Shown in pieces: positions 5,922 to 34,549 of a stretch of 41,777 nt of DNA. Under the pieces are notes generated by a model. The model was not told the DNA's origin and made no database searches. It worked only from the letters and a program-made list of their open reading frames with translations. The number at the start of each line of letters is the position of its first letter. The stretch's first letter is position 1. Source of the stretch: Pseudomonadota bacterium (GTDB taxonomy: Bacteria > Pseudomonadota > Gammaproteobacteria > CALCKW01); contig JBCCUP010000038.1 of assembly GCA_039196715.1 (NCBI GenBank), positions 1 through 41,777 on the forward strand, written 5' to 3'. The position numbers were made by a program, and so were the translations under genes.

Positions 5922-6054
5922 GAAGCCTGTGCACCCTGATCCCGATCGGCGACCGCACATCGGGCGCCGCGGGACATTGCAAGAAAGTAAGGTCGTTGAG
6001 GGTGCAGTTCGGCGGTCTGACGGGGAACTTGAGCGCCGGAGGCGTGCCGCCGGG

Positions 6055-15049: not shown

Positions 15050-15349
15050 GTGAAACGTATCACCGCCGTAGACCGGCTTGAGGCCGGCCAGGTGCTTGGG
15101 GCTGATGTGGTGGGACCCGACGGGTCGTGCATTGCGTTGAGTGGCGCCGCCTTGCAATCCGACGACATCGCTCGCTTGCGAGCGGCCAGCATGAGCACCG
15201 TCATGGTCGAGCTGTCCGAGGACGACGTGCGCGCGCTCGTCTCAGCGCAGCCTGAGAACACGGACGCGGTGTCACGGTTTCGGCTCAACGACCTCACGCA
15301 CCCGCTGATCAACAAGCTCGTGGAGGTGGCCAGTGAGCTCCGCGCCTGA
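15050..15349 (+). CDS. Small protein beside an HDOD gene, function unknown
   Basis: The 99-residue protein begins at GTG 15050, with GAGG about 6 bases upstream. Its N-terminal half, VDRLEAGQVLGADVVGPDGS followed by a hydrophobic strand and 'GAALQSDDIARLRA', follows the pattern of the small beta-rich domain that often accompanies HD-GYP and HDOD signalling proteins; that likeness is by eye. The last 17 bases overlap the HDOD gene, whose own Shine-Dalgarno lies inside this gene, so they are very likely co-translated. Confidence 0.65.
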   Translation: MKRITAVDRLEAGQVLGADVVGPDGSCIALSGAALQSDDIARLRAASMSTVMVELSEDDVRALVSAQPENTDAVSRFRLNDLTHPLINKLVEVASELRA

Positions 15350-16208
15350 GCAGACTGTGCTCCAGCCTGCTGAAGACACGATCGACGGACTGGTCGCCAA
15401 CGTCACGCAGCTGGTGTCCTTGCCCGACGTGTTTCTCCGGTTCGAACAGGAGCTCGCGAGTCCGACTGCCAGCACCGATTCCCTCGCGGACATCCTGATC
15501 GTCGATCCGGACATCACCTCGCGGCTGCTGTCGCTGGCCAACTCTGCGTTCTTCGGCTTTTCATCGCGCGTCGAGACCGTCCACCGCGCACTGGTGCTGA
15601 TCGGGACATCTCAGGTCCGTGACCTGATCCTCGCCACCGTCGTGGTCGACCGGTTCAGCCGCTTGCCGATCGGCATCCTGGACATGAGATCGTTCTGGCA
15701 ACACAGCATTGCCACAGCCTCGCTCGCGCGTGCGCTGGCGACCGAGCTGCGTATCCGGGCGGCCGACAAACTGTTCATCGGTGGCCTGCTGCACGACCTG
15801 GGCCGGCTGGTGCTGGTGTTGGAACGTGCCGATGACATGTGCGATGCCCTGATTCGTGCGCAGGAAGAGGATCGGGATCTCGCCGAGATCGAGCGCGAGC
15901 TGTTCGGGTTCGATCACGCCGAGGTGGGCGGCGCGTTGGCACGCGCGTGGTCGTTGCCCGAAAGCGTGACCGACATGATCGCCTTGCACCACCGCCCCAA
16001 TGACGCAATGAAACCGGATGTTGACCTGGTACACCTCGCCGACGTGATGGCGCACGGTTTGTCCTGGGGCCGGTCGGGGCAGCGGTTGGTACCTGCGCTG
16101 AGTCACGAGAGCTGGGCGCGCACCGGCCTCTCTGAAGACGCCTTTGACGACATACACGAGATGGGACAGGACATTTACACCGAGATGCAGTCGCTGATCC
16201 TCCGCTAG
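15333..16208 (+). CDS. HDOD-domain signalling protein
   Basis: The 291-residue protein is almost entirely one HDOD domain (about residues 20-235): ILIVDPDITSRLLSLANSAF, RALVLIGTSQVRDLILATVV, FWQHSIATASLARALA, GLLHDLGRLVLV, FDHAEVGGALARAWSLPE and ALHHRP. The HD-type histidines and aspartates are kept, as in many HDOD proteins, but no HD-GYP motif is present. Such proteins usually serve as regulatory or scaffold modules in second-messenger and chemotaxis circuits. The GTG at 15333 has GGAGG 7 bases upstream and lies inside the preceding gene. It runs 8 bases before the GGDEF/EAL gene. Confidence 0.9.
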   Translation: MSSAPEQTVLQPAEDTIDGLVANVTQLVSLPDVFLRFEQELASPTASTDSLADILIVDPDITSRLLSLANSAFFGFSSRVETVHRALVLIGTSQVRDLILATVVVDRFSRLPIGILDMRSFWQHSIATASLARALATELRIRAADKLFIGGLLHDLGRLVLVLERADDMCDALIRAQEEDRDLAEIERELFGFDHAEVGGALARAWSLPESVTDMIALHHRPNDAMKPDVDLVHLADVMAHGLSWGRSGQRLVPALSHESWARTGLSEDAFDDIHEMGQDIYTEMQSLILR

Positions 16209-16215
16209 GCTGAAT

Positions 16216-18123
16216 ATGGAATCGATTGACCGAGGCGCACTCAACGGACCGCAGGCAGTTGCGCGGTCTCTTGACCAGTGGCACGACCACCAGTGGCTCG
16301 CGCTCGACCTGATAAAAGGCTACAACGACACGGCCATTGCCGCGGTTGAAGCGATCGATCGCACGGCGCTCGCGATGACGTCGACTCAGCTGCTGCGTGA
16401 CCTCTTCGGGTTCACGGCCTGTGCCTACGTGTCCGTGCCAAACGGATCCAGGGCGTCCGAGGTGATCTCTGACGACGAGGTGCCCGCACTGTTGGCGGCG
16501 TACCGGGCGCTGAAACAAAGCGGCAAGCTTCGCGTTTCGCTGCGCGCGTTCCCCCCGCGGCCGCGCACGCTGCCGGACGCCGACGGGGCGATTCTGGTGG
16601 CGCCCGTCGACTTTCAGAACCCGCAGGGGCACCACATCATCGCGCTGCTCAGCGAAGGCGCAACCTGGACGGGCATGCGCGGGCGTATGATGGAGTTCGT
16701 GCTCGATCAGGTCCACGGCCACTTCGAAGCGCTGCACCGCGTCGAGCAGGAGAGGGCACGGGCCTCGGCGCTCGAGGTGTCGGTGGTCGAGAAAGAACAG
16801 CAGCTCGAGTTCCAGGCGTCTCACGATCAACTCACGGGCCTGATGACGCGCGAATCGCTGCTGTTGCGCATCGATGATGAGCTTGTGCGCGGCCGCCAGC
16901 TGTGCATCGTGGCCGTCGGCATTCGCGGCTTCTCGCGGGTCAACCACCGCTACGGCTATGCAGCGGCTGACCGCGTGCTGAAGGAGATCGCTCACCGACT
17001 CGACACCGAGACGCGGCGCGGCGCCTTCGATGCGTTGATCGCGCGCATTGCCGACGACCGGTTTGCGCTGGCAATGGTGTTGCCGGATGTCGACGATTTC
17101 GAGCGAGCGAATGCCCATGTCGGGCGATTGTGCGCGACCCTCGGTGTCGGCCTCACGGCCTCGAGCGAGCACATCACGCTCACCGCGCACGCCGGTGTGG
17201 TGCTCGCGCCGGGTGATGCCGACAAAGCGCGGCACGCGGTGAACGCGGCGGAGCTGGCACTCGACGCGGCGGACCACGCGGTCGGGTCTCCGGTCATCGC
17301 GTTTTCCGGTCTGGAACCTGGCGAGAAGCAGGACAACTCGCTGAAGATCGAGTCCGAAATCAACGCAAGCCTGGACAATGGGCACTTTGAACTGTGGTTC
17401 CAACCCAAGATCGACATGGCCACCGAAGCCGTGGTGGGCGCCGAAGCCTTGATGCGCTGGAACCACCCGGAACTCGGGCGGGTGAGCCCGGTGCAATTCA
17501 TTCCGGCCGCGGAGCGGTCGGGTCAGATTCACGCACTCGGCGAATTGGCCTTGCGAGAGGCGTGTCGGCACGTGTCGGCGTGGTTGGACGAGGGATTCAA
17601 GCCCGGGCTGATTTCAGTCAACCTCTCACCAGTGCAGGTGGCGTCTCCGGACCTGCCTGATCGCTTCAGGGCAATATTGGAGGAAGAGGGCGTCAGTGCC
17701 GGCACGCTCGAGCTCGAGGTCACCGAAACCGCCGTGAGCCGAAACATCGACGTGGCAGCACGGGTGATCTCGGAGCTGCACGGCCTCGGCTTCACGGTTT
17801 CCATCGATGACTTCGGCACGGGCTACTCCTCCTTGTTGTTGTTGCGCCAGCTGCCGATCGATGTGATCAAGATCGACCGCGCGTTCATTCGGGATCTGAC
17901 GATCAACCGGGACGATTTCGCCATCGTGCGGGCCATCCTGTCCATGGCAGATGACCTCGACCTCAAGGTCGTTGCCGAGGGCGTCGAGACCCGCGAGCAA
18001 TACGGGTACCTGCGGGCCTTGGGGTGCAGCCAGGTGCAAGGTGCCATCGCAACCATGCCGCTCGCGCCGAAACCCTTCCGCAATTTCGTCGCAGGGTGGC
18101 AGGGCCTGATCGACGAGGTCTGA
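16216..18123 (+). CDS. GGDEF/EAL protein, predicted c-di-GMP phosphodiesterase
   Basis: A 635-residue soluble protein: an N-terminal sensory region (to about 190, possibly GAF-like), a GGDEF domain (about 200-350) and an EAL domain (about 370-620). The GGDEF signature is replaced by A-D-D-R-F (residues 279-283), so cyclase activity is unlikely. The EAL domain retains EALMRW (E410), VNLSPVQ, LELEVTET, IDDFGTGYSS (D531-D532), KIDRAFI and EGVET, so hydrolysis of c-di-GMP is predicted, with the GGDEF part perhaps binding GTP or another ligand as a regulator. It is the third gene of a tight unit with the small protein and HDOD genes. Confidence 0.92.
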   Translation: MESIDRGALNGPQAVARSLDQWHDHQWLALDLIKGYNDTAIAAVEAIDRTALAMTSTQLLRDLFGFTACAYVSVPNGSRASEVISDDEVPALLAAYRALKQSGKLRVSLRAFPPRPRTLPDADGAILVAPVDFQNPQGHHIIALLSEGATWTGMRGRMMEFVLDQVHGHFEALHRVEQERARASALEVSVVEKEQQLEFQASHDQLTGLMTRESLLLRIDDELVRGRQLCIVAVGIRGFSRVNHRYGYAAADRVLKEIAHRLDTETRRGAFDALIARIADDRFALAMVLPDVDDFERANAHVGRLCATLGVGLTASSEHITLTAHAGVVLAPGDADKARHAVNAAELALDAADHAVGSPVIAFSGLEPGEKQDNSLKIESEINASLDNGHFELWFQPKIDMATEAVVGAEALMRWNHPELGRVSPVQFIPAAERSGQIHALGELALREACRHVSAWLDEGFKPGLISVNLSPVQVASPDLPDRFRAILEEEGVSAGTLELEVTETAVSRNIDVAARVISELHGLGFTVSIDDFGTGYSSLLLLRQLPIDVIKIDRAFIRDLTINRDDFAIVRAILSMADDLDLKVVAEGVETREQYGYLRALGCSQVQGAIATMPLAPKPFRNFVAGWQGLIDEV

Positions 18124-21224: not shown

Positions 21225-21255
21225 CGTCGGTTGTGTGGGTTCCCGTGTGACTGCC

Positions 21256-21768
21256 ATGTTGAGTGACAACCCGGAGCAGTGTTTCGAGTTGCTGCATTGC
21301 CTCGCCGTCCGGTCTCGTGTCGACGGCGGTGCGGGTGTCGACCTCTGGGCAGCAGGGGAGGCGCTGGGTTTCTCACCCGACATGACGCAGGCGCTCTCGC
21401 GGCACTTGCTTGACCACCGCATGCTCCAGCCAACCTCGCTCGCTGGCACGGTGGTGGTCTCGCCGGTCGGTCTCGCGTCGATTGCGCTGGCCAAAGCCGA
21501 CCCGGACCGGCCCAGTGTGCATTTTCCGGCGTTGTCGGGCTTCTTCGGCCTGGGCGATGAGATCGATGTCGGCCTCAGCAAGCACGCTGTGAGCGTGTTG
21601 CTCGATCAGCTGTCCGACTGTCGGGGTGTGCTCGGCGCCGAGTCCGGCACGCCGACCCCGCTGGAGCACCGGCTCAGTGAGCTCGAGCAGCTGGTCGTTG
21701 ACAGCCGGGTTGAAACTTCCAGTTTGCGTCGGGGGCTGCAGCGCCTGAGGGCATCGCTGCCGGATTGA
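21256..21768 (+). CDS. Small protein of unknown function, possible winged-helix
   Basis: The 170-residue product is not a family I recognise. Its first ~80 residues have a helix-helix-strand pattern (CFELLHCLAV, VDLWAAGEALGFSPDMTQALSR, LLDHRMLQPTS, GTVVVSPVGLASIAL) that resembles a winged helix-turn-helix domain; the C-terminal 40 residues are probably a helix or short coiled coil with charged repeats (LEHRLSELEQLV). Starts at GTG 21235, GTG 21247 and ATG 21256 are possible; the ATG is chosen because the predicted fold begins soon after. It lies just before the polysaccharide locus and could regulate it, which is a guess. Confidence 0.6.
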   Translation: MLSDNPEQCFELLHCLAVRSRVDGGAGVDLWAAGEALGFSPDMTQALSRHLLDHRMLQPTSLAGTVVVSPVGLASIALAKADPDRPSVHFPALSGFFGLGDEIDVGLSKHAVSVLLDQLSDCRGVLGAESGTPTPLEHRLSELEQLVVDSRVETSSLRRGLQRLRASLPD

Positions 21769-22025: not shown

Positions 22026-23201
22026 ATGTACTTGCAAGACTTCCAACTGAAGGCGCCGCCGTTCGCCGACATTCCCGATCCGGTCTGGTACGTCCCGTAC
22101 AACGCGGCGGAGCGCGCGTTTGCATCGCTGTGTGTTGCGTTGCAGCAGAGTGACCCGGTGATCATCCTCAACGGACCGCACGGCATCGGCAAGACGCAAC
22201 TGTTGCGGCGGTTGTCGTTCGAGTTAGACAGAAGCAACGTACTGAATTTCATCGGCTATGCGGGATACAGCGCCGATGAACTCTTGCTTGCGGTTGCCGA
22301 CGGGTTCGACATCGCGCGCGAGCGGGAGGGGACGGCAGCCCTGGTCAGCGCTATCGGCCACTTCCTGCACGATTGTGTCGCACAGGACCAGCGTGCGGTT
22401 CTGGTCTTAGACGATGCCCACCTGGCACCACCGGAGTTGCTTGAGCACGTGGTGTTGTTGTCCAACCACGTCAGTAGCGGTGTCCGCCCACTGACTGCGG
22501 TCGTTTCAGGCAGTTTTGACGCCGCACGGCCCTTGCCGACGAGTTTGCGGGCAAGGGCGCGCTTCCAGGCTGAACTCGGCGGGATCACCGAGGATGAATG
22601 TGAAATGTACATCCAGACGCGTTGGCATATCGCGGGTGCGTCGGAGCCGCTCGACGTGGACAAGGAGGCCGTGTCGGCCGCCATGGCCTTTTCGGGTGGC
22701 GTGCCGCGCGCACTCGGCTGGGCGCTCGACAGCGCCCTGAGTGTCAGCGCGGCGCAACGTGAGGGGCGAGTCAGCGCGAAGACCATGCAACGCGCGCTCG
22801 CGGTGTTGCGCGGTGAACCTCCGGTGGACGGAGCGCTGCCGGCCGATGCTGCTCAGTTCCCAACACCACCAGACAAACCGGTGGCGAGCACGGTCACGCC
22901 GATCACCGGTGGGCGCGGCCGGCTGGTCATCGCCAACCGCGCGGGTGAGCGGGCTGAGATCGACCTCGCGTTGGGTGATTACTCGATTGGGCGGTCGCCG
23001 GAGTGCGACATCCAACTCGAAAGCAGCCACATCAGCCGTCAGCACGCGCGACTGGAGGTGCGCCGTGACAGCATCGCACTGGTCGACCTCGGTGGTGTCA
23101 ACAAGCCACAGGTTAACGGCGATGTGATCGACCGGCACGTGCTTTCGGTCGGAGACCGGATCCAACTTGGGGAGTTTGCTCTCCACCTCGAAGACGCCTG
23201 A
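22026..23201 (+). CDS. ExeA-like AAA ATPase fused to an FHA domain
   Basis: The 391-residue protein starts MYLQDFQLKAPPF, the typical ExeA/GspA-like N-terminus, with Walker A GPHGIGKT (residues 50-57) and Walker B VLVLDDAH (125-132). After a proline-rich linker the last ~90 residues are an FHA domain: LALGDYSIGRSPECDIQLES, then SSHISRQHARLEV and a final 'SVGDRIQLGEFALHL'. FHA domains bind phosphothreonine. A fusion of this ATPase type to FHA is unusual to my knowledge. It is the first gene of the polysaccharide locus; the start at 22026 fits the family N-terminus. Confidence 0.85.
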   Translation: MYLQDFQLKAPPFADIPDPVWYVPYNAAERAFASLCVALQQSDPVIILNGPHGIGKTQLLRRLSFELDRSNVLNFIGYAGYSADELLLAVADGFDIAREREGTAALVSAIGHFLHDCVAQDQRAVLVLDDAHLAPPELLEHVVLLSNHVSSGVRPLTAVVSGSFDAARPLPTSLRARARFQAELGGITEDECEMYIQTRWHIAGASEPLDVDKEAVSAAMAFSGGVPRALGWALDSALSVSAAQREGRVSAKTMQRALAVLRGEPPVDGALPADAAQFPTPPDKPVASTVTPITGGRGRLVIANRAGERAEIDLALGDYSIGRSPECDIQLESSHISRQHARLEVRRDSIALVDLGGVNKPQVNGDVIDRHVLSVGDRIQLGEFALHLEDA

Positions 23202-23229
23202 CGGCCCTCGGCAACAGACCCGGAATACC

Positions 23230-24786
23230 ATGAACGATTCTGAATTTGTACAGCTCGACGGCGAACGCCAAGAGGGAGGGCGCCTGTTCAAGGTGCTTGG
23301 GCGTCGCAAGATCGCATTCTTCCTGCCACTGTATGCAGCGTTAGCGCTGGTCGCGCTCGCGATCACGCTGGTGACGCCAAAGTATGAGTCGCGTGCGTCG
23401 TTGCAGGTTCAACGCCAGTCTTTGACCGGCGCCGATGCGATCGAGGCTGCAAGGCAAGCGGACAAGCGGCTCGCGCGCGTGCAGCAGACGATGCAGACAA
23501 ACGCGAACATCGAGACCCTCATACGCGAAAACGATGTGTTCCCGCTGGACGTTGAGAACCCACAGTCAGTGATTGATAAATTTCGGAGTTCAATGGCGTT
23601 CGAACGCATCGACACGGATCTTGTTGATGACCGCACGGGCAGACGCTCGACCACAACGTTGGCGTTTGAGGTGGCCTTTCGCCACCCGGACCCGGTCGTT
23701 GCGCACGACGTGACCAATGCGCTTACCGACCAGTTGCTGGCGTTGTCCAACGCGGCGCGGCAAAGTGAGGGCGAAGCGACGGCCGCTGTGCTTCAGGAAA
23801 ACGCCGAGCGGCTTGCATCGGTGGCAGAGGGCCTTGAAGCGCAACTGACTGCCTTTCGTCGCGAGCACAGCGGCAAGCTGCCTGAAGAAGCGGCGACCAA
23901 TTTCCAAGCGGTACAGAGCACACAGGCGCAGCTGCTGGCGGTTGACGCCGAAGTGCGCAGTTTGCAGTTGGAGCGCGCTCGCGTCGAGGCTGAGCTTGCC
24001 AACACCAATCCGTTCGGGCGCATGGTCGCCACCGACGGCACAACTGTGCTGTCCAACGACGAAAACGTGCGCGTGCTGAAAACCCAGTTGGCCGAGGCTC
24101 GCCGCAAGTACTCCGCTGAGCACCCCGATATCCGCCGACTGGAGCGCCAGCTGCGCGAAGCCGAATCCGCCGCCGGTGAGTCCGGATTGACCTCGATCGA
24201 GCGTGCACCGGACAACCCCGCGTACATCACGCTGCGGTCGACGCTCGGATCGTTGGATTCGCGCTTGGGTTCGCTTCAAATCACGCGAGGGGAACTCAGG
24301 ACCAAGCTCGATGGGCTGGAATTGAGGCTCGCAGGTGCGCCTGAAATCGAGAAACAGTATCTGTCGCTTCAACGCGAGTACGAGCAAGCAGTCAGTGAAG
24401 TTGAGGATGCGAGGGCTAAAGTCGCCGATGCAGAGCTCTCTCTCGCAATTGGAAACAGCGACACAGGCGACCGCTTGACGTTGATTGAGGCGCCAGTCGT
24501 TGCCACCTCGCCGGACAAACCCGTGCGTTTGGCCGTTGGCGTGCTGGGCACGCTCATGGCCGTGTTCGGCAGCTTCGCACTGGCCATCCTGGTCGACTTC
24601 TTTGACCGGTCGGTACGGGACGTGAGCGACCTGATCAGCCTGACCGGCGAGCCGCCGCTCGGGGTTATCTCCCGTATCTCGAGTGCTGGGGATACGGCGT
24701 TGAACACCATCGGTTACGTCATGATGGTGGCGACGCCGTTGCTGATCGGCGCCTTCTTGTACCTGCAGCTCGGCCAGGCAGGCTGA
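23230..24786 (+). CDS. Wzz-type polysaccharide copolymerase without kinase domain
   Basis: The 518-residue inner-membrane protein has a first transmembrane segment at about residues 26-50, a long periplasmic coiled-coil region rich in charged repeats, a second membrane segment at about 433-457 and a third near 493-514. A conserved Wzz-type 'KYESRASLQVQRQ' stretch follows the first helix. Such proteins set chain length and drive export of exopolysaccharide. There is no C-terminal ATP-binding domain; a separate kinase gene follows at 24815, as in two-component copolymerase systems. The third hydrophobic segment is additional to the common two-helix plan. Start ATG 23230. Confidence 0.88.
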   Translation: MNDSEFVQLDGERQEGGRLFKVLGRRKIAFFLPLYAALALVALAITLVTPKYESRASLQVQRQSLTGADAIEAARQADKRLARVQQTMQTNANIETLIRENDVFPLDVENPQSVIDKFRSSMAFERIDTDLVDDRTGRRSTTTLAFEVAFRHPDPVVAHDVTNALTDQLLALSNAARQSEGEATAAVLQENAERLASVAEGLEAQLTAFRREHSGKLPEEAATNFQAVQSTQAQLLAVDAEVRSLQLERARVEAELANTNPFGRMVATDGTTVLSNDENVRVLKTQLAEARRKYSAEHPDIRRLERQLREAESAAGESGLTSIERAPDNPAYITLRSTLGSLDSRLGSLQITRGELRTKLDGLELRLAGAPEIEKQYLSLQREYEQAVSEVEDARAKVADAELSLAIGNSDTGDRLTLIEAPVVATSPDKPVRLAVGVLGTLMAVFGSFALAILVDFFDRSVRDVSDLISLTGEPPLGVISRISSAGDTALNTIGYVMMVATPLLIGAFLYLQLGQAG

Positions 24787-24814
24787 TCGCGTTCGCACCG
24801 GAGACACGACACCT

Positions 24815-25627
24815 ATGGAATTCCTGAGAGACGCGGTCAACAAATCCGGCGATGCGATGTCGGCAAACCGCAGTCGCGGCAGCCGCCGCCTGCGCGTGGT
24901 CGACGAGCTGAAGTTCGAGTACACGCAAACGGCGGTGGTGCCGACGCCGCCAGCGACCTTGCACCGAAACCGGGTCATCGCCGGCCGTGACCGCGACGAG
25001 TATGCAGACGCGTACCGCATGTTGCGCTCGCGTGTGATGCACAAGCTCAACGCCGGCGGCTGGACGTCGGTCGGCATCACCAGCACCGGGCCAGGGCAGG
25101 GCAAGAGTCTAACCTCGGCCAACCTCGCTGTCAGCATCGCCCAGAAGGTCAACAACAGTGCTCTGTTGGTGGATTTCGACTTGCGGCGGCCGTCGATCCG
25201 TTCGCTGTTCGATTACCGCGGACCGATGGGCCTGCAGCACTACATCAGCAAACAGGTGCCGCTTGAAGAAGTGTTGTTCAACCCCGGCATCGACCGCCTG
25301 GTGGTGCTGCCCGGGGGCAAGCCCAACAACCGGTCATCCGAGTTGCTCGCCTCGCCGCGCGTCATCGACCTGACCCGTGAGGTGATCGCACGCTACCCGA
25401 CGCGGATCGTCATCTTCGATCTGCCACCGGTACTGGCAACCGACGACGCCCTGACGATCCTGCCGCACCTCGACAGTTGCCTGTTGGTCGTCGAGGAGGG
25501 CCATGCTAAGCGCAACGAGGTGCACCGTGCTGTTGAGTTGCTCGGTGAGTTCAACCTGATCGGGACTGTTCTCAACAAGTCGCGCGACAAGCATTCGGCT
25601 TACAGCTACAAGACCAAGTACTACTGA
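24815..25627 (+). CDS. BY-family tyrosine kinase, CpsD/EpsB-like
   Basis: The 270-residue cytoplasmic protein contains a Walker A STGPGQGKS (about residues 90-98), Walker A' LLVDFDLRRP (117-126) and Walker B IVIFDLPP (198-205). Its last residues, SAYSYKTKYY (261-270), form a tyrosine-rich tail that such kinases autophosphorylate to control polysaccharide assembly. It lies directly after the copolymerase gene at 23230, its likely membrane partner. The first 50 residues are basic and less conserved. Confidence 0.9.
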   Translation: MEFLRDAVNKSGDAMSANRSRGSRRLRVVDELKFEYTQTAVVPTPPATLHRNRVIAGRDRDEYADAYRMLRSRVMHKLNAGGWTSVGITSTGPGQGKSLTSANLAVSIAQKVNNSALLVDFDLRRPSIRSLFDYRGPMGLQHYISKQVPLEEVLFNPGIDRLVVLPGGKPNNRSSELLASPRVIDLTREVIARYPTRIVIFDLPPVLATDDALTILPHLDSCLLVVEEGHAKRNEVHRAVELLGEFNLIGTVLNKSRDKHSAYSYKTKYY

Positions 25628-25671
25628 CCGGGCCCCTGACACGGCGACCTCGAACCCAGCGGACACCGACC

Positions 25672-26610
25672 ATGTACCTCGATTTCTTCAATCTGTCTCG
25701 CAAGCCGTTCTCGATTCACGCGGCGACGGACCACATCTACCTCGGTGAAAACCACGGCGTCGCAGCAGCCTCGCTCGAGTACGGTATTCTCGAGAACCCT
25801 GGTTTCATCGTCATGAGCGGCGAAATCGGCACCGGCAAGACCACACTGGTTCGACATGTGCTCGACCAGGTGGGCGGCCAGACGGTGGTGGCCGAAGTCA
25901 ACTGCTTGCCGAGCAGCCGATCCAACCTGATCGAGCAGCTCTGCGCTGCGTTCGGTGTGAGTTCGCGCGACGTCGGTTTGCCCGATTTCGTCAACCACCT
26001 CAGTGGCTACATCGATGAGCAGAGCAAACGCGGCAAGTCGCTGATCCTGTTCCTCGACGATGCGCAGAATCTCAGCGCTGACGACCTCGAGGCCATCCGA
26101 CTGATCGTCAATTTCAACGACGAGATCGACAAGCTGATCACCGTTCTGTTTGTCGGTCAAACCCAGCTGCGGCGGACGATCCGCAAGGCGGACCTCGCAC
26201 AATTCAGGCAGCGGATTTCGGTCCACTACCACCTCGACGCACTCACGCGTGACGAAACAGCTGACTACATCCGGTTTCGACTCGATGCGTGCGGGGGCGA
26301 CGTCAACATCATTTCGCCGGATGCCGTGTCATTGATCCACCAGCATGCAGATGGACTGCCACGGGTGATCAACGCCATCGCAGACCTCTGCCTGGTGTAC
26401 GCCTTTTCGCGCCAACAGGCGATGGTCGACCCGGACACCGTCAGCGCGGTGGTTCGTGACCGAAACCGGGGCGGAATCGCACTGCAGATGGCACACCTCG
26501 CGCAAAACCCCCTGCGTAATGTCGTTCGGGTGGCGCCCTTCCGCAACCGCTTTGCCAACGACAACCTCTCCGCGCCGGAACTGGCGCGCAGTCTCTACTG
26601 GACAGGATGA
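25672..26610 (+). CDS. ExeA-like AAA ATPase of a polysaccharide locus
   Basis: The 312-residue protein begins MYLDFFNLSRKPFSI and has Walker A GEIGTGKT (50-57) and Walker B LILFLDDAQ (124-132), at nearly the same residue positions as in the ATPase at 22026, so the two are paralogues. It resembles the ATPase found next to the copolymerase and kinase in exosortase-associated polysaccharide loci; the role there is not settled. No FHA or peptidoglycan-binding domain is added. Its stop overlaps the next start (ATGA). Confidence 0.87.
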   Translation: MYLDFFNLSRKPFSIHAATDHIYLGENHGVAAASLEYGILENPGFIVMSGEIGTGKTTLVRHVLDQVGGQTVVAEVNCLPSSRSNLIEQLCAAFGVSSRDVGLPDFVNHLSGYIDEQSKRGKSLILFLDDAQNLSADDLEAIRLIVNFNDEIDKLITVLFVGQTQLRRTIRKADLAQFRQRISVHYHLDALTRDETADYIRFRLDACGGDVNIISPDAVSLIHQHADGLPRVINAIADLCLVYAFSRQQAMVDPDTVSAVVRDRNRGGIALQMAHLAQNPLRNVVRVAPFRNRFANDNLSAPELARSLYWTG

Positions 26611-28070
26611 GTGCTGTAACCTCAGCTCGGGAAGGGCCCGGTCTCGGGGTCACGATAGTCACCATGGTGCTCAGCTTTAATGTGCTGAGCACCATGTTGT
26701 TGGCCGAGCTTCCGGGCGGCAACCTGGCAAACTACGGCGTGACAGGCCTGTTCATGTTCACGGTTGTCACGGTGGGGCTGTTTGCACGCAAGTCGATTTG
26801 GGTTGGCGCCGAGTGGATGTTGCTTATGGCTTGGCTGCTGTATGCGGTGGTGCCAGCGATGCTGTCTCAGGATGTCGAGAGCAGCATGTTCAAGGTGCTA
26901 ACGGTGCTTCAGTTGGCTGTGTGGGCACTTGCGATTCAACAATCCATATTGTGGCGCATGGGTGCAACTGCACCGCTCTTGATGTATGGCGCAGCCGTCA
27001 CGGTTGCGTACGCCGTGAGCTTTGCTGGTATCGGGGTGGGTGTTGTTGAAGGCAGTCCTGATGCCACCGGCCGAGTCGCCAGTACGCTCGTCAATGCAAA
27101 CACATTTGGCGCAGCTGCCGTCATGGGATTGAGTTTGTGTCTCCTGGCTGCGTCTGGACCCCTCGGCCCCAAGGCGTGGCTTATCCAAGTGGTTATGGCT
27201 CTGGCCTTGGTTGTTGCCGTGGTCAACAGTGGCTCTCGTACTGCACTGGTCGGCATGCTGTTCTTGCTGCTAGGGGCATCCTGGGCGTTTCAGTTTTGGC
27301 GCCTGAAGCAGTTTGTCAGGATGTTTCCATCGTTCCTGATGATTGTCGTCGTGGCGAGCGCGACCTACTTCGTTGTCAAGGACATGCCAGTCTTTGCTGA
27401 TCGTGTTGACAGTGTTTTTTCTCTCGAAGACTCGAATTCTATGGTCAGCCGTCTGTGGGACTTTATCGGTGTTGTCGGTGCTGGTTCGCTCAGCGCGGAA
27501 GAGGGTGGTGAATCGATGTCCCAACGGTTTGAGCTCGTGCTCGTGGGGCTGGATTTGCTCTTGCAGAGCAACTTGGTTGGCATCGGGCCGGACAACTTTC
27601 GATCGCTCATTGGTGCGTATTCCCATTCGAACGTGATCGAGATCCTGGTGGCAACCGGCGTTGTCGGTATTCTGCTTTACTACAGCATCTATGTCGCTTT
27701 GGTGTGGCGCTGCGCGAGCATCTTGCGCGTGGATCGGAGCCACCGTGTTGCCCGCATGGCACTCGTTGCGTTGGCCACGTTGTCGTTGATGGATATCCAA
27801 CACGTCAGTTACGACACCAAGCAGGGCTGGCTCTTTCTCGCTATCTTGATCGGCACGGTGGAAGTCGCACGGCGGCGCGCGCTGGCCTCGCGTACGGCAT
27901 CCAATAAAGCGGATAAGCGTACCGCCGAGGATTCACATGCACCGGAGGCGACTGGCGTCATGGCAACACCGAGATTGGTGTCGCAGACGACCCTTGCGCC
28001 ATCGACACCGATCAAGCTGGACACCGACCGGCATGTCGCGTTGAAGGCAATCCGTCCCCTGAAAGACTGA
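26607..28070 (+). CDS. O-antigen ligase/polymerase-like (Wzy/WaaL) membrane protein
   Basis: The 487-residue protein has about ten to twelve hydrophobic segments and a central periplasmic loop, ending in a hydrophilic tail of some 70 residues. Motifs of the family are NSGSRTALVGML and, after the loop, AYSHSNVIEILVATGVVGIL. It would polymerise repeat units or ligate the chain. The gene overlaps the preceding ATPase by ATGA. Its base composition is visibly less GC-rich than its neighbours, suggesting separate history. No exosortase signature is seen in it. Confidence 0.88.
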   Translation: MSAVTSAREGPGLGVTIVTMVLSFNVLSTMLLAELPGGNLANYGVTGLFMFTVVTVGLFARKSIWVGAEWMLLMAWLLYAVVPAMLSQDVESSMFKVLTVLQLAVWALAIQQSILWRMGATAPLLMYGAAVTVAYAVSFAGIGVGVVEGSPDATGRVASTLVNANTFGAAAVMGLSLCLLAASGPLGPKAWLIQVVMALALVVAVVNSGSRTALVGMLFLLLGASWAFQFWRLKQFVRMFPSFLMIVVVASATYFVVKDMPVFADRVDSVFSLEDSNSMVSRLWDFIGVVGAGSLSAEEGGESMSQRFELVLVGLDLLLQSNLVGIGPDNFRSLIGAYSHSNVIEILVATGVVGILLYYSIYVALVWRCASILRVDRSHRVARMALVALATLSLMDIQHVSYDTKQGWLFLAILIGTVEVARRRALASRTASNKADKRTAEDSHAPEATGVMATPRLVSQTTLAPSTPIKLDTDRHVALKAIRPLKD

Positions 28071-28111: not shown

Positions 28112-30007
28112 TCACGCCAGCGAGCTGATACCTTCTTCCTTCGCCCAGAGTCCGAGGCACATCAGTTGCCACAGGCGTTCGGCGTAGCCTTCGCGTCCTG
28201 ACATATGCCAGTCGATCATGTGGTCGATGCGGGATTGATCGAACATCTCGCTGACCAGGCTGTTCGGGCTCTGCAGGCTGTCGTGGACCAAGTCGCGCAT
28301 GTCACTTCGCAGCCAGTCGCTCATCGGGATGCCGAAACCGGACTTGGGCAGGTTAAACAACTCTGCGGGCAAGCGCTCTTTCGCGATGTCGCGCAAGATA
28401 CGCTTGCCCTTGCCGTCCTTGTATTTGTAGTGCTCCGGTAAACTTGCGGCGAATTCAATCACGCGGTAGTCGAGCAGCGGTGCACGCACCTCGATGCTTG
28501 CGGCCATGCTCGAGATGTCGACTTTGGCGAGGATGTCGTCCGCCATGTAGACCTGCATGTCGGTGATGCCGGCGCGCGTGATGTCGCTGTGTTTGGCATG
28601 TGATGCGTACACCGCGCTAACGTACTGGTCCACGGCATCCCGTTGCGTTAGTGCGTTCGCAAACGCATCTGAGTACAGCTTCCGTTTATCGCCCGAGACA
28701 AAGGTGGTCACGGTGCGCGCATAGGCCTCGTGAATCGGCAGTGTCGACTCCAGCGCCGCGTTGAGGATACGCTCGGGCAGCGTGCGCAGGTGGCGGGCTC
28801 GCTGGCGTGTGTACCGGGCCAACAGGCCACTGCCGGGGAGCCGGCTGATCAAGCGGTTCAACTGCCGTCGTTGCTCAAACTTTGGGTAGTGCGGGTAGCC
28901 GAGGAACAACTCATCACCGCCATCGCCACTGAGGGCAACCGTCATCTTCTGGCGGACTGCAGCGCACAGGAAGTACGTCGGGATCGTCGAGGCATCGGCG
29001 TACGGCTCACCGTAGTGACGTAGCAGCTTGGGCAGAACGGCGGCGCCGTCGACCGCAACCACGTCCTCGTTGTGGTCGGTTCCGAGCCACTCCGCAACCA
29101 TTCTTGCGGGTGCGCGCTCGTCGAACTTGCGTTCGTTGAAGCCGACGCAGAAGGTTTGCAACTGCGTGCTGTTGAGCGCGCTGGCGAAGGCGGCAACGGT
29201 TGTCGAGTCGATTCCGCCACTGAGAAAGGCACCGAGCGGTACATCGGACTCGAGTCGGTCGCTGACCGCCTGCGTCAGCAGCTCGGACAACGCGTCCTTG
29301 GCGTCCTCGTATGACAGTGTGGATGGGTTGTGCGCCACGGACCAGTAGCACTCCGACGACTCGGTGCCGTCGCGCTCGATCGCAAGCGTCGTCGCCGGTG
29401 CCAGCTTTTCAACGCCTTTGTATACGGCGAACCGATGTGGGATATAGCCGTAAGACACAAAGGCGTCGAGGCCTGTGGGGTCAAGGGTGCGGGTCACGCC
29501 CGCCGAGGCGGTAAGGGATTGCAGCTCCGACGCGAAGGCGACGCCATGCTCGGTGCGCGCGAGGTAGAGTGGTTTCTTGCCGAGTCGATCGCGCCCGAGC
29601 ACAAGGCGCTGGCGTTTACTGTCCCACAGCGCGATGCTGAAGAATCCGTTGAGCTTTTCGCAGAACCGGTCACCGTATTTGCGGTAGCAATACGGAATGA
29701 CCTCGGTGTCGCTGCTCGTGCGGAACACAACGCCGTCGGCCTCGAGCTCTTTGCGCAGCGTTTTATGGTTGAAGACCTCGCCGTTGAACACGAGCCAGAT
29801 GTCGCCCTCGGCGTTGGCCATGGGCTGGTGCCCGCCCGCGAGATCGATGATCGAGAGCCGTCGGTGACCCAATCCAATGTCGCCGTTGCAGTAGCTACCG
29901 CCGCCGTCGGGGCCGCGGTGGAGCATGCGATCTGTCATCGCTGTGACGGCGGTCTCGGTGGCTGGCAATCCCGATCTGAAATTCCAAAATCCCGCTATTC
30001 CGCACAA
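28112..30007 (-). CDS. asnB: Asparagine synthetase (glutamine-hydrolysing)-type amidotransferase
   Basis: The 631-residue protein begins MCGIAGFWNF, giving the class II glutaminase cysteine at position 2, with RLSIIDLAGGHQP and FNGEVFNH downstream. The synthetase half has GAFLSGGIDSTTVAAFAS (SGGxDS nucleotide loop) and SGDGGDELFLGY. In polysaccharide clusters such proteins may amidate sugar or carrier groups rather than make free asparagine. The start is TTG at 30007, fixed by Cys2, with a GAGGT about 10 bases upstream. It lies in inverted orientation inside the cluster and converges on the Wzy gene. Confidence 0.93.
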   Translation of the reverse strand: MCGIAGFWNFRSGLPATETAVTAMTDRMLHRGPDGGGSYCNGDIGLGHRRLSIIDLAGGHQPMANAEGDIWLVFNGEVFNHKTLRKELEADGVVFRTSSDTEVIPYCYRKYGDRFCEKLNGFFSIALWDSKRQRLVLGRDRLGKKPLYLARTEHGVAFASELQSLTASAGVTRTLDPTGLDAFVSYGYIPHRFAVYKGVEKLAPATTLAIERDGTESSECYWSVAHNPSTLSYEDAKDALSELLTQAVSDRLESDVPLGAFLSGGIDSTTVAAFASALNSTQLQTFCVGFNERKFDERAPARMVAEWLGTDHNEDVVAVDGAAVLPKLLRHYGEPYADASTIPTYFLCAAVRQKMTVALSGDGGDELFLGYPHYPKFEQRRQLNRLISRLPGSGLLARYTRQRARHLRTLPERILNAALESTLPIHEAYARTVTTFVSGDKRKLYSDAFANALTQRDAVDQYVSAVYASHAKHSDITRAGITDMQVYMADDILAKVDISSMAASIEVRAPLLDYRVIEFAASLPEHYKYKDGKGKRILRDIAKERLPAELFNLPKSGFGIPMSDWLRSDMRDLVHDSLQSPNSLVSEMFDQSRIDHMIDWHMSGREGYAERLWQLMCLGLWAKEEGISSLA

Positions 30008-30339: not shown

Positions 30340-31611
30340 ATGACTTTGATATCACGTACAACCCAGATTTTGGTCGTGTGTGCCTTGAGCGCATCTGCGC
30401 ATGCGGCGTTCCCAGACCTTGAATTGTCCCCTGCGGTGATTGGAGAGGAGGTGGCGCGTCCAACCTACCCGAATTCCAACGCCATCGCGGTTGCTGTGGG
30501 TGAAGCGTCGTTGTACCCCTCGGCGCGTTTCCGAGTGGGTTCGACAGATAACGTGTTTCTTGATGTGTCTGACAACACCGCAGTCGACTCTACCCGCCTC
30601 TCTTTCTCGCCGCAGCTAAACTACATCGCCTTGGGCGCGAAGCAAATGCTGTGGTTGGGGTACTTGGGCGACTACGCCACCCACAACGATGCCGAACAAG
30701 CCGACTATGACGACCACCGGCTCTCGCTGGTCTCACACACGGCCTTCGATTCACGTCGGAGGCTTGATATCGAGGCAACGATCTCCCAGTCCCATCAAGA
30801 TATTGGGCTTGCGCGCACGACCGATTTCACGGCGGCGGAGATCGTTGCGCTGTCCGAAGTGGATACGTTCAGGCAAAACAAGCTCGGAGCGTCCTTCTCC
30901 TATGGCAACCCTGCAACCAAGGGCGAATTGGTGTTCGGGTACGCCTTTGGTGATATCGAGTTCACGTCGAATGAGGCGGAAACGGCCCAGTACGACCGCG
31001 ACTTTTCCGTCGCGTGGTCTCGGCTGTACTACCGCCTGTCGCCGGATACGCGGGTGTACGGCGAGTTAAGCTACCGGGCGCTCGACTACGACACGGCGTT
31101 TGCCACTGATGGCAGAGAACGGGATGCTGCAAACACAGCCGCGCTACTGGGAATCATTTGGGACACATCGGGTCTGTGGTATGGTGCTGCTTCAATCGGG
31201 ACAGGAGAAAGGGACTACGACGACGCAGGCTTGACTGACTCAAGCACGGTCCTCGGCGATGTCAGTTTGACGTGGCTGGTGAAGTCTTACAGTCAAGTGG
31301 TTTTCCAAGCAGGCCGTCGTGAGTTCGAATCGACGCTGGGCGATGGCCTAGCAGAAACAACAACATACAGCGTCCGCTGGTTGCATGATTGGAGCGATCG
31401 AGTCTCGTCGTCGTTGCGGGCAAGTTCTGTCTCGTCGAAAGAGTCCGATGGCTCCCTCGACAGCGACTACTCTCAAGCGAGTGCACAGCTTGTGTTCGCT
31501 CCGCGCCGGTGGCTTCGATTCTCGCTGGGTGCCTTGGTGGACGATATCTCAAAGTCCAGCGGGAATGCGGATAGAATGCAGACATATTTTGGTGTAGAAG
31601 CGAATTTGTAA
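30340..31611 (+). CDS. Outer-membrane beta-barrel protein of the polysaccharide locus
   Basis: The 423-residue protein has a signal peptide ending near ASAHA at residue 22, then alternating amphipathic strands rich in aromatic residues (LNYIALGAKQ, LGYLGDYATHN, YGELSYRALDYDT), ending FGVEANL, typical of a barrel with terminal hydrophobic residues. It resembles the BBP2-type outer-membrane proteins encoded in exopolysaccharide clusters, including those linked with exosortase. It could be the export pore or a carrier of the polysaccharide. Start ATG 30340. It is followed after 30 bases by the export protein gene. Confidence 0.8.
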   Translation: MTLISRTTQILVVCALSASAHAAFPDLELSPAVIGEEVARPTYPNSNAIAVAVGEASLYPSARFRVGSTDNVFLDVSDNTAVDSTRLSFSPQLNYIALGAKQMLWLGYLGDYATHNDAEQADYDDHRLSLVSHTAFDSRRRLDIEATISQSHQDIGLARTTDFTAAEIVALSEVDTFRQNKLGASFSYGNPATKGELVFGYAFGDIEFTSNEAETAQYDRDFSVAWSRLYYRLSPDTRVYGELSYRALDYDTAFATDGRERDAANTAALLGIIWDTSGLWYGAASIGTGERDYDDAGLTDSSTVLGDVSLTWLVKSYSQVVFQAGRREFESTLGDGLAETTTYSVRWLHDWSDRVSSSLRASSVSSKESDGSLDSDYSQASAQLVFAPRRWLRFSLGALVDDISKSSGNADRMQTYFGVEANL

Positions 31612-31641
31612 CGCAACTCTGCTCTCTCGGGTCTCTAGTAC

Positions 31642-32193
31642 ATGTTTTGGTCAAAAAAATGTCGCATCCCGGCGCGCCTCGCTTTGTTCCTGGTGGTGAT
31701 TGTGGGGTCTGCTTCGATTGCAGACGAGTCGAATCCGGTTGATGACTATCGGCTGGACACAGGGGATCGCATCCTGATCAAAGTCTTCGAGGAGGATGAA
31801 CTGACTGTTGAGACCACGCTGAACGACCGCGGAATCATCAACTACAGTTTCCTCGGCGAGTTGCGAATTTCGTCGCAAACCACCCGAGAGGTGGAGCAAC
31901 TGCTTACCAGCCGTCTCAAAGATGGGTATCTGAAGAACCCTAGCGTCAGCGTCAGTGTGTTGCAGTACCGCCCGTTCTTCATCACGGGAGAGGTACGCAC
32001 GCCAGGTGATTACCCCTTCCAACCTGGGTTGACCTTGGAGAAGGCGGTCTCGGTCGCGGGTGGATTCACCGACCGCGCGTCACGTCGGAAAATTTTTCTG
32101 CAACGCGGTTCCACAGAGAAAAAAGCACGCATGCGATTCCAAGACCGTGTGCAACCTGGCGATATCATCACGGTTGAAGAAGGGTTCTTTTAA
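31642..32193 (+). CDS. Short Wza-type polysaccharide export protein
   Basis: The 183-residue protein has a hydrophobic N-terminus (about residues 8-27, a signal peptide ending near SIADES), a Poly_export domain (YRLDTGDRILIKVFEEDELT onwards) and one SLBB-like segment (FFITGEVRTPGDYPFQPG, LEKAVSVAGGFTDRAS). There is no lipobox cysteine after the signal, and the protein is about half the length of E. coli Wza, lacking the C-terminal membrane helix. Short export proteins of this form are known from exosortase-type loci. It lies between the barrel and the Wzc gene. Confidence 0.87.
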   Translation: MFWSKKCRIPARLALFLVVIVGSASIADESNPVDDYRLDTGDRILIKVFEEDELTVETTLNDRGIINYSFLGELRISSQTTREVEQLLTSRLKDGYLKNPSVSVSVLQYRPFFITGEVRTPGDYPFQPGLTLEKAVSVAGGFTDRASRRKIFLQRGSTEKKARMRFQDRVQPGDIITVEEGFF

Positions 32194-32251
32194 GGTATGG
32201 TCGACGCCCTCATCGGCTCCGTTTCCACAGCGTTTTCAGGTTTAGCTTGAC

Positions 32252-34549
32252 ATGTCTATTTTTCAACAGTCTATGGACGATGACGTCAATTACGGCGATC
32301 ACGACATTGGCGGTGGCGACGAGATAAACCTGCGTGAGTACATCCGTGTCCTGATCAAGAACAAGTGGACCATTGCGCTGATCACGGCCTTGACCACAGC
32401 GCTGGCGTTGGGCTACGTCACTACCTCTACGCCCATCTACAAAGCGACGTCCACGTTGTTGATAGAAGGTGACAAAAACAATGTCGTTTCCATCCAAGAG
32501 CTTTATGGCTTTGATGCTTCCGACACCGATTACTTTCAAACGCAATTCGAAATCCTGAAGTCGCGAGAACTCGCCGAGAAGATTGTGGAAAAGCTTGGTC
32601 TGACCACACACCCCGATTTCACGAACTCTTCGCAATTCGACATCATTGCAGCCGGCAGAGAGCTGCTGGGCATGCCGCCTGTGGAAGGGGCGGTGGACCA
32701 GCAGTCTGAGCTGCTGTCGGCGATGGACCCGGACATGCGACGACGCTTTGTGGCGGGGCAATTCTTAAGCCGACTGTCTGTCGAACCCATCCGCAAGACG
32801 AAATTGGTGCGCCTTGGGTTCGAGTCGCCAGACCCGGTGTTCGCCGCGCACGTCGCCAATTCGGTTGGGGAAATTTATATCGAGGATTACCTTGACGCCA
32901 AAGCCGAGATGACAGAAAAAGCGGCTGACTGGCTGACCGAACGCCTGTCCGTCCTCAAGGTTGCGTTGCAAGAATCGGAAGAAAAGCTTCAGGCGTACAA
33001 GGAAGAAACCGGTCTCGTGGATTTTGGCGGCGGCGTGTCCCGGTTCACCGAACAGGAACTCGCCAATTTCTCGAACAAGCTCGTCGACGCGCAGCGAGAA
33101 GAAGCTGAAGCGGAGGCGCTCTTCAACGAAGTGCAGCGGTTGCGTGCGACTGCGCCAGACGTGTTGGAAAATCTGCCTGCGGTTCAAGCGAGTTCCCTCG
33201 TCCAAACGTACAAGGTGGACCGTGCGGAGGTCGAGCGCGAAATCGATGAGTTGTCCAACCGGTACGGTGACCGACACCCGCGGATGGTCGATGCCCGGTC
33301 CCGCTTGGGGGTAATCGAACGCAACCTCGAGCTCGAGATTCAGCGCATCATATCGTCCATTCAAAAGGACTACGAGTTGGCGCAGTCAAATGTCCGTACG
33401 CTTGAGCAACGTGTTGCCAGTGGCAAGCAAGAGATTCAGAGCATTGGCCGCAAGAGCTTCGAATTGGACCAACTCCAGCGCGAGGTGGATGCCAACAGGA
33501 ACCTGTACGAGACGTTCTTCAATCGATTTCGGGAAACCGACGAGGCGAGCAGCCTCGACTCAACCAACGCGCGCATTTCGGATGCGGCCGTGCCGCCTCT
33601 CTTTCCTGCTAAACCCAAGAAGTCGATGATCGTCGCGTTGGGGTTTATTCTCGGCTTGATTGTGTCCGTCGCGATCGCGTTCTTGCGGGAATACCTCGAC
33701 GACACGGTCGTGGGCGCGGACCAGATTGAATCGAAGTTGGGTCTGCCGCTCCTCGGCATTTTGCCCAAACTGAAACTGAAAAAGGCCACCGAGCTGCCTT
33801 TGAATCCCGACACCATTGTGGATGACAGGGGTAGTTTTGCCGAATCCATTCGGACCATTCGCACCAGCATCACGCTGGGCAACGCGGATGGCTCGGACAA
33901 GCTCGTGATCATCACCTCGAGCGTGCCGAACGAAGGCAAGTCGACCTTGTCCGTGAACCTGGCGCACTCGATGGCCGAGATGGATAAGGTCTTACTGATC
34001 GACGCGGACATGCGCCGACCCAGTGTACACAAGACACTCGGCCTGCCGATTGACTCGCCCGGCTTGGTCAACCTGGTGGAGAAGACGGCTCGCGCGGCCG
34101 ATTGTATCTACAAGGATCTGCTTGGCAGCCTCGATGTGATGCCGGCCGGCGGCGTGCCGGCGAACCCGCTCGAGCTCATCTCGAGCAAGCGCTTTGGCTA
34201 CCTGCTCGAGCAGTTGCGTAAGCACTACGACCGCATCGTGATCGACTGCCCGCCCGTGCAAGCTGTGAGTGATGCGCTGGTGCTCTCACGCCACGCCGAC
34301 TCGGTGTTGTACGTCGTTCGCTCGGGTGAAACGCCGTTCCCGGTGGCCCAACGTGGCGTGCGCCGGATGCAGCAGATCGGTGCGTCGGTCAAGGGCCTGA
34401 TCGTGTCGCAGGTGGACATCGAGAAGCTCAAGAGCCACGGCGGTGACCACTACTACCAGGGCTACTACGACTACTACGGGTACTCTGAAGGCAGCGCGGC
34501 TGCAAAGAAGAAAGTCGTCGACGAGCCGGACGACTTCAGCACACTCTGA
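32252..34549 (+). CDS. Wzc-type polysaccharide copolymerase with tyrosine kinase domain
   Basis: The 765-residue protein carries an N-terminal Wzz domain with a membrane helix near residues 38-58, a long periplasmic coiled coil, a second membrane helix near 457-480 just after the PPLFPAKPKK motif, and a cytoplasmic kinase with Walker A SSVPNEGKST (about 556-565), A' LLIDADMRRP (about 580-589) and Walker B IVIDCPP (about 661-667). A tyrosine cluster HYYQGYYDYYGYSEG lies near the C-terminus. It is a second, fused version of the copolymerase and kinase encoded separately at 23230 and 24815. Its 3' end overlaps the protease gene tail by 14 bases. Confidence 0.95.
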   Translation: MSIFQQSMDDDVNYGDHDIGGGDEINLREYIRVLIKNKWTIALITALTTALALGYVTTSTPIYKATSTLLIEGDKNNVVSIQELYGFDASDTDYFQTQFEILKSRELAEKIVEKLGLTTHPDFTNSSQFDIIAAGRELLGMPPVEGAVDQQSELLSAMDPDMRRRFVAGQFLSRLSVEPIRKTKLVRLGFESPDPVFAAHVANSVGEIYIEDYLDAKAEMTEKAADWLTERLSVLKVALQESEEKLQAYKEETGLVDFGGGVSRFTEQELANFSNKLVDAQREEAEAEALFNEVQRLRATAPDVLENLPAVQASSLVQTYKVDRAEVEREIDELSNRYGDRHPRMVDARSRLGVIERNLELEIQRIISSIQKDYELAQSNVRTLEQRVASGKQEIQSIGRKSFELDQLQREVDANRNLYETFFNRFRETDEASSLDSTNARISDAAVPPLFPAKPKKSMIVALGFILGLIVSVAIAFLREYLDDTVVGADQIESKLGLPLLGILPKLKLKKATELPLNPDTIVDDRGSFAESIRTIRTSITLGNADGSDKLVIITSSVPNEGKSTLSVNLAHSMAEMDKVLLIDADMRRPSVHKTLGLPIDSPGLVNLVEKTARAADCIYKDLLGSLDVMPAGGVPANPLELISSKRFGYLLEQLRKHYDRIVIDCPPVQAVSDALVLSRHADSVLYVVRSGETPFPVAQRGVRRMQQIGASVKGLIVSQVDIEKLKSHGGDHYYQGYYDYYGYSEGSAAAKKKVVDEPDDFSTL

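Follow-up and report, generated by a model that had tools for sequence, protein, structure and literature searches.

How bacterial polysaccharide co-polymerases are switched on and off is poorly understood, the accepted input being a cycle of tyrosine phosphorylation driven by a BY-kinase. In type VI secretion, Fha binds the phosphothreonine (pThr) of TssL and the system is activated (PMC3953482). A BY-kinase has been found to be a substrate of Hanks kinases in B. subtilis, in vitro (PMC4166321), and a BY pseudokinase has been proposed to serve as the scaffold of a co-polymerase (PMC12004946). The locus described here lies in a window of 41,777 nucleotides, positions 1 to 41,777 of contig JBCCUP010000038.1 of an uncultured gammaproteobacterium (assembly GCA_039196715.1). 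As judged from sequence, an ExeA-type ATPase with a C-terminal FHA domain, a type of domain that reads pThr, is co-inherited in a polysaccharide assembly cluster with the neighbouring BY-kinase; this protein is here called the FHA-ATPase. The association raises the possibility that two types of protein phosphorylation converge on a single machine. A search of open-licence literature found no paper describing an ExeA-FHA ATPase or its arrangement with a BY-kinase, and no described function for the gammaproteobacterial family to which this protein belongs.

Organization of the Locus

The first-pass annotation had read positions 22026-26610 as two ExeA-like ATPases enclosing a co-polymerase and a kinase, with an FHA domain on the first ATPase only, and this placement agrees with the profile searches. 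Both ATPase reading frames start with ATG, and all genes of the core are on the forward strand: the FHA-ATPase (22026..23201, 391 aa), a polysaccharide co-polymerase, probably of the PCP-2 type, that resembles the XrtA chain-length determinant (23230..24786), a stand-alone BY-kinase (24815..25627) and the second ExeA-type ATPase, of the XrtA/EPS type and without FHA (25672..26610, 312 aa). The co-polymerase reaches 145 bits against TIGR03007 over nearly its full length, below the cutoff of 278.85, and 19.9 bits against Wzz, below the cutoff of 25.5. The BY-kinase reaches 169 bits against TIGR03018, below the strict cutoff of that model, and 108.5 bits against TIGR01007, just above the cutoff of 108.05; it carries the motifs GPGQGKS (Walker A), LLVDFDLRRP (A') and IVIFDLPP (B) as well as the C-terminal tyrosine cluster YSYKTKYY. 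For the second ATPase the TIGR03015 score is 232 bits, and for the FHA-ATPase 109.4 bits, both under the curated cutoff of 324.5.

Upstream, a forward reading frame for a 177-aa protein (21235..21768) is the first gene of the conserved module. It has no Pfam match, while its AF2 model shows an N-terminal HTH with a wing (pLDDT about 80-90 in that part) and gives weak Foldseek matches to winged-helix folds; a counterpart occupies the equivalent place in G001, G002 and G003 (38-57% identity) and in G147 and UBA7957 (about 20%). Downstream lies a gene for an O-antigen ligase/polymerase-like protein (26607..28070, forward strand; Pfam Wzy_C, 1.5e-12), which overlaps the preceding stop by 4 nt and is also found in G001 and G003, followed on the reverse strand by an asparagine-synthase-like amidotransferase (28112..30007; TIGR03108, 570 bits, below the cutoff of 816.9). 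An outer-membrane and second co-polymerase set on the forward strand (30340..34549), assigned from Pfam and NCBIfam profiles, consists of a BBP2-type barrel (30340-31611), a Poly_export/SLBB protein (31642-32193) and a fused Wzc-type co-polymerase/BY-kinase (32252-34549). Membership in the XrtA/PEP-CTERM systems was considered and rejected on the sub-cutoff scores and on the absence of exosortase (PF09721) matches in the five module genomes searched, G000, G001, G002, G003 and G147, all of them drafts and G001 just 79% complete.

Conservation of the Module

The five genes, from the winged-helix-like frame to the second ATPase, form a module that recurs in two distant lineages, six genomes in all. 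As the first-pass annotation had proposed to look for, an FHA-ATPase stands beside a BY-kinase in other genomes too, the order being kept in all four genomes of the window's genus (G000-G003), in G147 (the isolate Granulosicoccaceae sp. I2M11) and in UBA7957. Trees were built for four of the genes (FHA-ATPase, co-polymerase, BY-kinase and second ATPase), and each of them gives back the module as one grouping whose internal branching order does not differ between the trees. Support for the module clade is 100/99 for the BY-kinase, 99 for the co-polymerase (SH-aLRT, %) and 99/94 for the FHA-ATPase; in the tree of the second ATPase the module stands as one group against all others that were labelled, and the fork of the module itself is supported at 93/65. 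Given four congruent gene trees and a retained gene order, the module has been inherited as a unit. The FHA-ATPase is the fastest evolving of the four members compared, with 24-25% identity between the lineages as against about 50% for the kinase.

The AAA Part of the FHA-ATPase

The AAA part matches Pfam AAA_22 (E=7.6e-13), and the AF2 model of the protein (pLDDT 80) finds Cdc6/ORC AAA+ and GarA/OdhI FHA structures in Foldseek. Walker A (GPHGIGKT, residues 50-57, 22173..22196) and Walker B (residues 125-130, 22398..22415) are in place. Of the residues expected in an active AAA+ ATPase (Walker A Lys, Walker B Asp-Glu, Arg finger and sensor-2 Arg), the alignment shows K56, T57, D129, R177 and R228, with Asp130 at the position of the catalytic Glu. 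All six module FHA-ATPases have Asp or Asn there, and in the sister lineage of the module Walker B degenerates; the Glu is kept in 39/39 other ExeA-like ATPases and in 17 of the 19 FHA-ATPases encoded outside the module (solo forms). With Asp or Asn in place of Glu, slow ATP hydrolysis and a role as nucleotide-dependent scaffold or switch would be expected. The FHA-ATPase is best read as a putative AAA+ adaptor of the co-polymerase/BY-kinase complex that would hydrolyse ATP slowly or not at all and, in this genus, would be gated by pThr.

Origin of the FHA-ATPase and Nature of Its FHA Domain

FHA-ATPases were found in at least 23 of the 369 sampled genomes and represent a broader gammaproteobacterial family, usually encoded alone. 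Around the solo forms lie unrelated genes, among them purK, ABC-2 transporter and ThiF genes; in the 16 loci whose flanks were long enough, neither a co-polymerase nor a BY-kinase was near, and no neighbour conserved across families offered a clue to function. A purK-like gene adjoins the solo FHA-ATPase in three genomes, and a VWA-FHA protein does so in two f75 genomes. In a phylum-wide sample with four candidates per genome scored, no full-length FHA-ATPase besides that of the window was among the matches listed, and none stood beside other XrtA-type cores in the six loci examined.

The first-pass annotation took the two ATPases for duplicates, one of which had gained the FHA domain, on the basis of their shared start and equal Walker positions. 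These likenesses are real: Walker A occupies residues 50-57 in both proteins (GPHGIGKT and GEIGTGKT), and the acidic pair of Walker B residues 129-130. They are, however, family-wide: MYL or ‘MY..F’ starts and equal Walker positions are general among the 70 ExeA-like ATPases in the alignment. The two proteins are only 22% identical and fall into separate subfamilies: all 25 FHA-ATPases, drawn from many families, lie on one side of a branch supported at 99/97, apart from the 45 non-FHA ATPases, and the second ATPase groups with ATPases of EPS loci. Arg179 is present in 24/25 FHA-ATPases and in none of the 45 others, the second ATPase included, and the AAA parts of all six module FHA-ATPases score best against the profile of the solo forms. 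In favour of a common local origin one may cite, besides the Walker spacing, Asp130 in both ATPases of this genus, Thr157 common to both, and an AU test against joining the two module ATPases that is borderline (p 0.059 and 0.045); long branches also meet in the tree. A recent local duplication is nevertheless disfavoured, and duplication within the locus followed by acquisition of FHA seems very improbable to us; since the two ATPases belong to different subfamilies, the FHA domain is unlikely to have been acquired by either of two copies at the locus, and the fusion instead belongs to an older and wider family. That wider distribution raises another explanation, in which the protein is a general FHA-ATPase that has a separate function, as in the solo genomes, and merely sits in the operon, its link to polysaccharide assembly being positional, as the occurrence outside the module in at least 18 of the 369 genomes and the unrelated neighbours in the 16 loci would allow. 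Against this stand the congruent trees and the gene order retained in both of the distant lineages, as well as the changes particular to the module forms (DDAH/DNAH), absent from most solo forms, and we consider a positional link improbable.

The FHA domain (residues 298-391, 22917..23198) is a candidate pThr binder. Pfam FHA (PF00498) matches residues 319-382 (E=1.6e-16, 60.9 bits against a gathering cutoff of 20.7) and is not matched in the second ATPase; phmmer finds GarA/OdhI chains at 5e-11 to 1e-9, and the phospho-binding FHA structures GarA, OdhI and DgcB are among the matches. Inspection of the linker by eye showed no autoinhibitory ETTS motif of the GarA kind. The fold could instead be a phospho-independent adaptor that couples the AAA part to the co-polymerase/BY-kinase base with no Ser/Thr-kinase input, like the FHA-like domains of secretion rings. 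The second-best Pfam match of the region, Yop-YscD_cpl, is such a ring-component fold, the canonical STNGT loop reads GGVNK in the window, and non-catalytic scaffolding of a co-polymerase has been proposed for EcpK (PMC12004946). Two members that retain the module have also lost pocket residues (Ser337 to Ala and H340Q in UBA7957; N359T and H340Q in G147), so that pThr binding is no module-wide constraint, and docking in this sister lineage is probably phospho-independent. Against a general absence of pThr binding, R323, S337, R338, H340 and N359 are all kept in 4/4 genomes of the window's genus despite divergence to 43% overall identity, and the pocket R, S and N are kept in 19, 18 and 18 of 19 solo relatives. 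The conserved phospho-binding residues (R323, S337, N359) on which the first-pass reading depends are thus intact in the window's genus and eroded in its sister lineage; such erosion where the module is retained weakens the proposed phospho-dependent step. Even so, a purely phospho-independent scaffold, though the weightiest of these alternatives, is in our view somewhat unlikely.

Proposed Role

We prefer to see the FHA-ATPase as a dedicated, co-inherited cytoplasmic subunit of the co-polymerase/BY-kinase machine, docked through pThr in this genus and no recent duplicate of its neighbour, a reading that we would put at about an even chance. An XrtA-type core of co-polymerase, BY-kinase and ATPase is preceded by the FHA-ATPase of the older family and the small winged-helix-like protein. 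The AAA part would bind ATP and enter an assembly with the second ATPase and the co-polymerase/BY-kinase base, or be built up on them; having lost the Glu of Walker B, the protein would hydrolyse slowly and serve as a nucleotide-dependent scaffold or switch. In the window's genus, a Hanks-type kinase would write pThr on a component of the complex to which the FHA domain docks, tying assembly of the co-polymerase to Ser/Thr-kinase signalling in the manner of Fha and TssL in type VI secretion. Ser/Thr kinases, which the first-pass annotation had suggested looking for, do occur: Hanks-type kinases and a PP2C phosphatase are encoded in the window's genome, and Hanks-type kinases in all 11 FHA-ATPase genomes tested, with no Ser/Thr kinase gene within the module. 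A candidate for the mark is Thr267, inside the tyrosine tail of the BY-kinase, which all five module kinases compared have and none of five comparison kinases has. That a Hanks-type kinase marks a Thr on the complex, that this Thr is the docking site of the FHA-ATPase, and that one assembly thereby integrates Ser/Thr with Tyr phosphorylation to gate the machine, is a tentative proposal, which we think unlikely as a whole. A co-inherited FHA-ATPase would open a route for Ser/Thr-kinase signals into the co-polymerase machine. The two lineages, with intact and eroded pockets, offer a natural comparison, and the locus draws attention to the gammaproteobacterial FHA-ATPase family.

Comparison With Known Systems

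The XrtA/PEP-CTERM locus (TIGR03007, TIGR03018, TIGR03015) has the same order of co-polymerase, BY-kinase and ExeA-type ATPase, as in G092, G096 and G136, and likewise O-antigen-ligase-like, BBP2 barrel and amidotransferase genes close by, whereas the window scores below the curated cutoffs, lacks a detected exosortase and has the additional FHA-ATPase and winged-helix-like genes upstream. With BY-kinases of the Wzc/CapB/EpsB type and PCP-2 partners it shares a stand-alone BY-kinase with a Tyr tail beside a Wzz-type co-polymerase, but two ExeA-type ATPases are part of its operon, one of them carrying FHA. ExeA/GspA of type II secretion has the same AAA fold and MY..F start; in the window, however, the neighbours are polysaccharide genes with no recognised exeB/gspB among them, and the FHA-ATPase, in which AAA and FHA were the only domains found and no TM plus PG-binding region was seen, is without the kind of C-terminal extension present on longer ExeA-like proteins. 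Fha/PpkA/TssL of type VI secretion (PMC3953482) is a functional model only, in which FHA docks on a Thr-phosphorylated part of an envelope machine; the systems are not homologous as such, and the window's module is without a kinase gene of this kind. EcpK/EpsV of Myxococcus xanthus (PMC12004946) similarly places a co-polymerase under the control of a cytoplasmic partner with a nucleotide-binding fold, proposed to act as a scaffold, although EcpK is a BY pseudokinase and no AAA+ protein, and is without FHA. The solo gammaproteobacterial FHA-ATPases are encoded away from co-polymerase and BY-kinase genes and mostly keep the Walker B Glu and the S-x-N-G loop, but they have the same AAA_22 and FHA architecture, lie on the same side of the supported branch and share Arg179 with the FHA-ATPase of the window.

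Organization and co-inheritance of the module

The window belongs to a 4.95-Mb draft genome (169 contigs); sequence comparison recovered uncultured Granulosicoccaceae MAGs as its named relatives. An AAA ATPase bearing an FHA domain at its C terminus (FHA-ATPase, 22026-23201) is followed head to tail by three further genes, for a co-polymerase (start ATG at 23230), a stand-alone BY-kinase (24815-25627) and another ATPase (ATPase-2, 25672-26610). The four genes, spaced 28 to 44 nt apart, probably form a single operon, and a Wzy_C-type ligase/polymerase gene overlaps ATPase-2 by 4 nt. Since the cluster also encodes a second, fused Wzc-type co-polymerase/BY-kinase (32252-34549), the locus holds two kinase/co-polymerase pairs. 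Between the wzc-type gene and motAB lies an Astacin (M12A) peptidase gene (34536-36155, minus strand), with a counterpart of 61% identity at the equivalent position in the congeneric genome G003. Several EAL/HDOD/GGDEF proteins (4710-5960, minus; 15333-18123, plus) place cyclic-di-GMP-type signalling genes close to the polysaccharide cluster.

The full order, headed by a winged-helix-like ORF, is retained in the three other genomes of the genus (G001-G003; spread over two contigs in G001) and in two distant genomes, I2M11 and UBA7957. In I2M11 and UBA7957 the flanks are metH-like genes instead of thyA/folA, which argues that the cassette itself is the unit. The same six module members group together, with the same inner branching order, in the trees of the BY-kinase (support 100/99), the co-polymerase (99) and both ATPases, the kinase and co-polymerase trees containing only 16 or 17 comparison loci. 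The association of FHA-ATPase and BY-kinase is restricted but real, and such co-inheritance provides the strongest indication that the FHA-ATPase acts together with the co-polymerase and kinase.

Origin and distribution of the FHA-ATPases

The first-pass annotation had regarded the two ATPases as duplicates, one of which gained an FHA domain. Its Walker positions are exact in both proteins and the C-terminal FHA domain is a strong match (60.9 bits), but the pair shares 22% identity and falls into different groups of a tree of 70 ExeA-like AAA domains. All 25 FHA-bearing proteins (six from the module, 19 encoded elsewhere) lie on a single side of a 99/97 branch, while ATPase-2 is placed apart, among ATPases of XrtA-type polysaccharide loci. 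Arg179 occurs in 24 of the 25 FHA-ATPases and in none of the 45 others; the solo FHA-ATPase profile, built from those outside the module, scores best for every module FHA-ATPase, and all share the C-terminal FHA placement. A simple duplicate pair is therefore disfavoured rather than excluded, given AU test values of p 0.059 and 0.045 for that alternative and the long branches involved.

The ATPase-FHA fusion reaches beyond the window. At least 23 of 369 class genomes sampled carry it (five in the module and 18 elsewhere, in 13 families by the tool's numbering), a lower bound because the larger search scored five candidates per genome. Neither a co-polymerase nor a BY-kinase was found near the solo FHA-ATPases at 16 loci where the flanking sequence spans several kilobases (on one side only in one case; the short contigs L054 and L080 left out), and the neighbours inspected were for the most part unrelated genes. 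In two genomes of family f75 (L078, 8974-14106, and L081) the genes after the solo FHA-ATPase encode a VWA protein, which itself carries an FHA domain, and a repeat protein; together they may form a distinct FHA-based complex.

Active sites and phosphorylation

The AF2 model of the FHA-ATPase (pLDDT 80, six-sequence alignment) matched Cdc6/ORC-type AAA+ structures in Foldseek and, separately, the GarA/OdhI FHA domains. In a residue alignment, 39/39 other ATPases and 17 of the 19 solo FHA-ATPases keep the Walker B Glu; the module FHA-ATPases carry Asp (genus) or Asn (I2M11 and UBA7957), which would reduce hydrolysis. The genus ATPase-2 also has Asp here. The phospho-binding pocket (R323, S337, R338, H340, N359) is intact throughout the genus, with GGVNK in the STNGT loop, but I2M11 has lost H340 and N359, and UBA7957 S337, R338 and H340. 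Phosphothreonine reading is therefore plausible for the window's FHA domain, while across the module as a whole it is under no constraint.

Candidate kinases are available: the genome that contains the window gives three Pkinase matches above the cutoff, together with one match to PP2C and four to FHA, and Hanks-type kinases occur in 10/10 other FHA-ATPase genomes tested. In the window's own genome, a large Hanks-type kinase (L046, 6163-10557), which also contains a P-loop NTPase region, adjoins a nucleotide-cyclase-like protein whose C terminus carries an FHA domain (5221-6126). Elsewhere in this genome, the FHA half of the FHA-ATPase is matched most closely (34%) by a small FHA-domain protein near a mutL-like gene (L036, G000:C5:16925-17362). 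Thr267 of the BY-kinase, inside the C-terminal Tyr cluster, is found in 5/5 module kinases and 0/5 comparison kinases; picked up by scanning these ten, it is only a lead as a putative module-specific site.

Comparison with known systems

Precedents establish that each step of a phospho-gated mechanism exists somewhere, without showing its occurrence in the module. Type VI secretion is activated when Fha binds PpkA-phosphorylated TssL (PMC3953482), PtkA, a BY-kinase of B. subtilis, serves readily as an in vitro substrate of Hanks-type kinases (PMC4166321), an M. xanthus BY pseudokinase is a proposed scaffold of the co-polymerase EpsV (PMC12004946), and mutation of pssZ, a PP2C-type phosphatase gene within a rhizobial exopolysaccharide region, abolishes exopolysaccharide production (PMC6213207). 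The initial observation is partly confirmed and its interpretation, phospho-dependent control of polysaccharide assembly, partly supported; we consider such gating of the module rather unlikely. The core of co-polymerase, BY-kinase and ATPase resembles XrtA/PEP-CTERM polysaccharide loci but scores below the cutoffs of that system, and a search of five module genomes revealed no exosortase; we describe it as XrtA-like in origin rather than as a member of the XrtA system.
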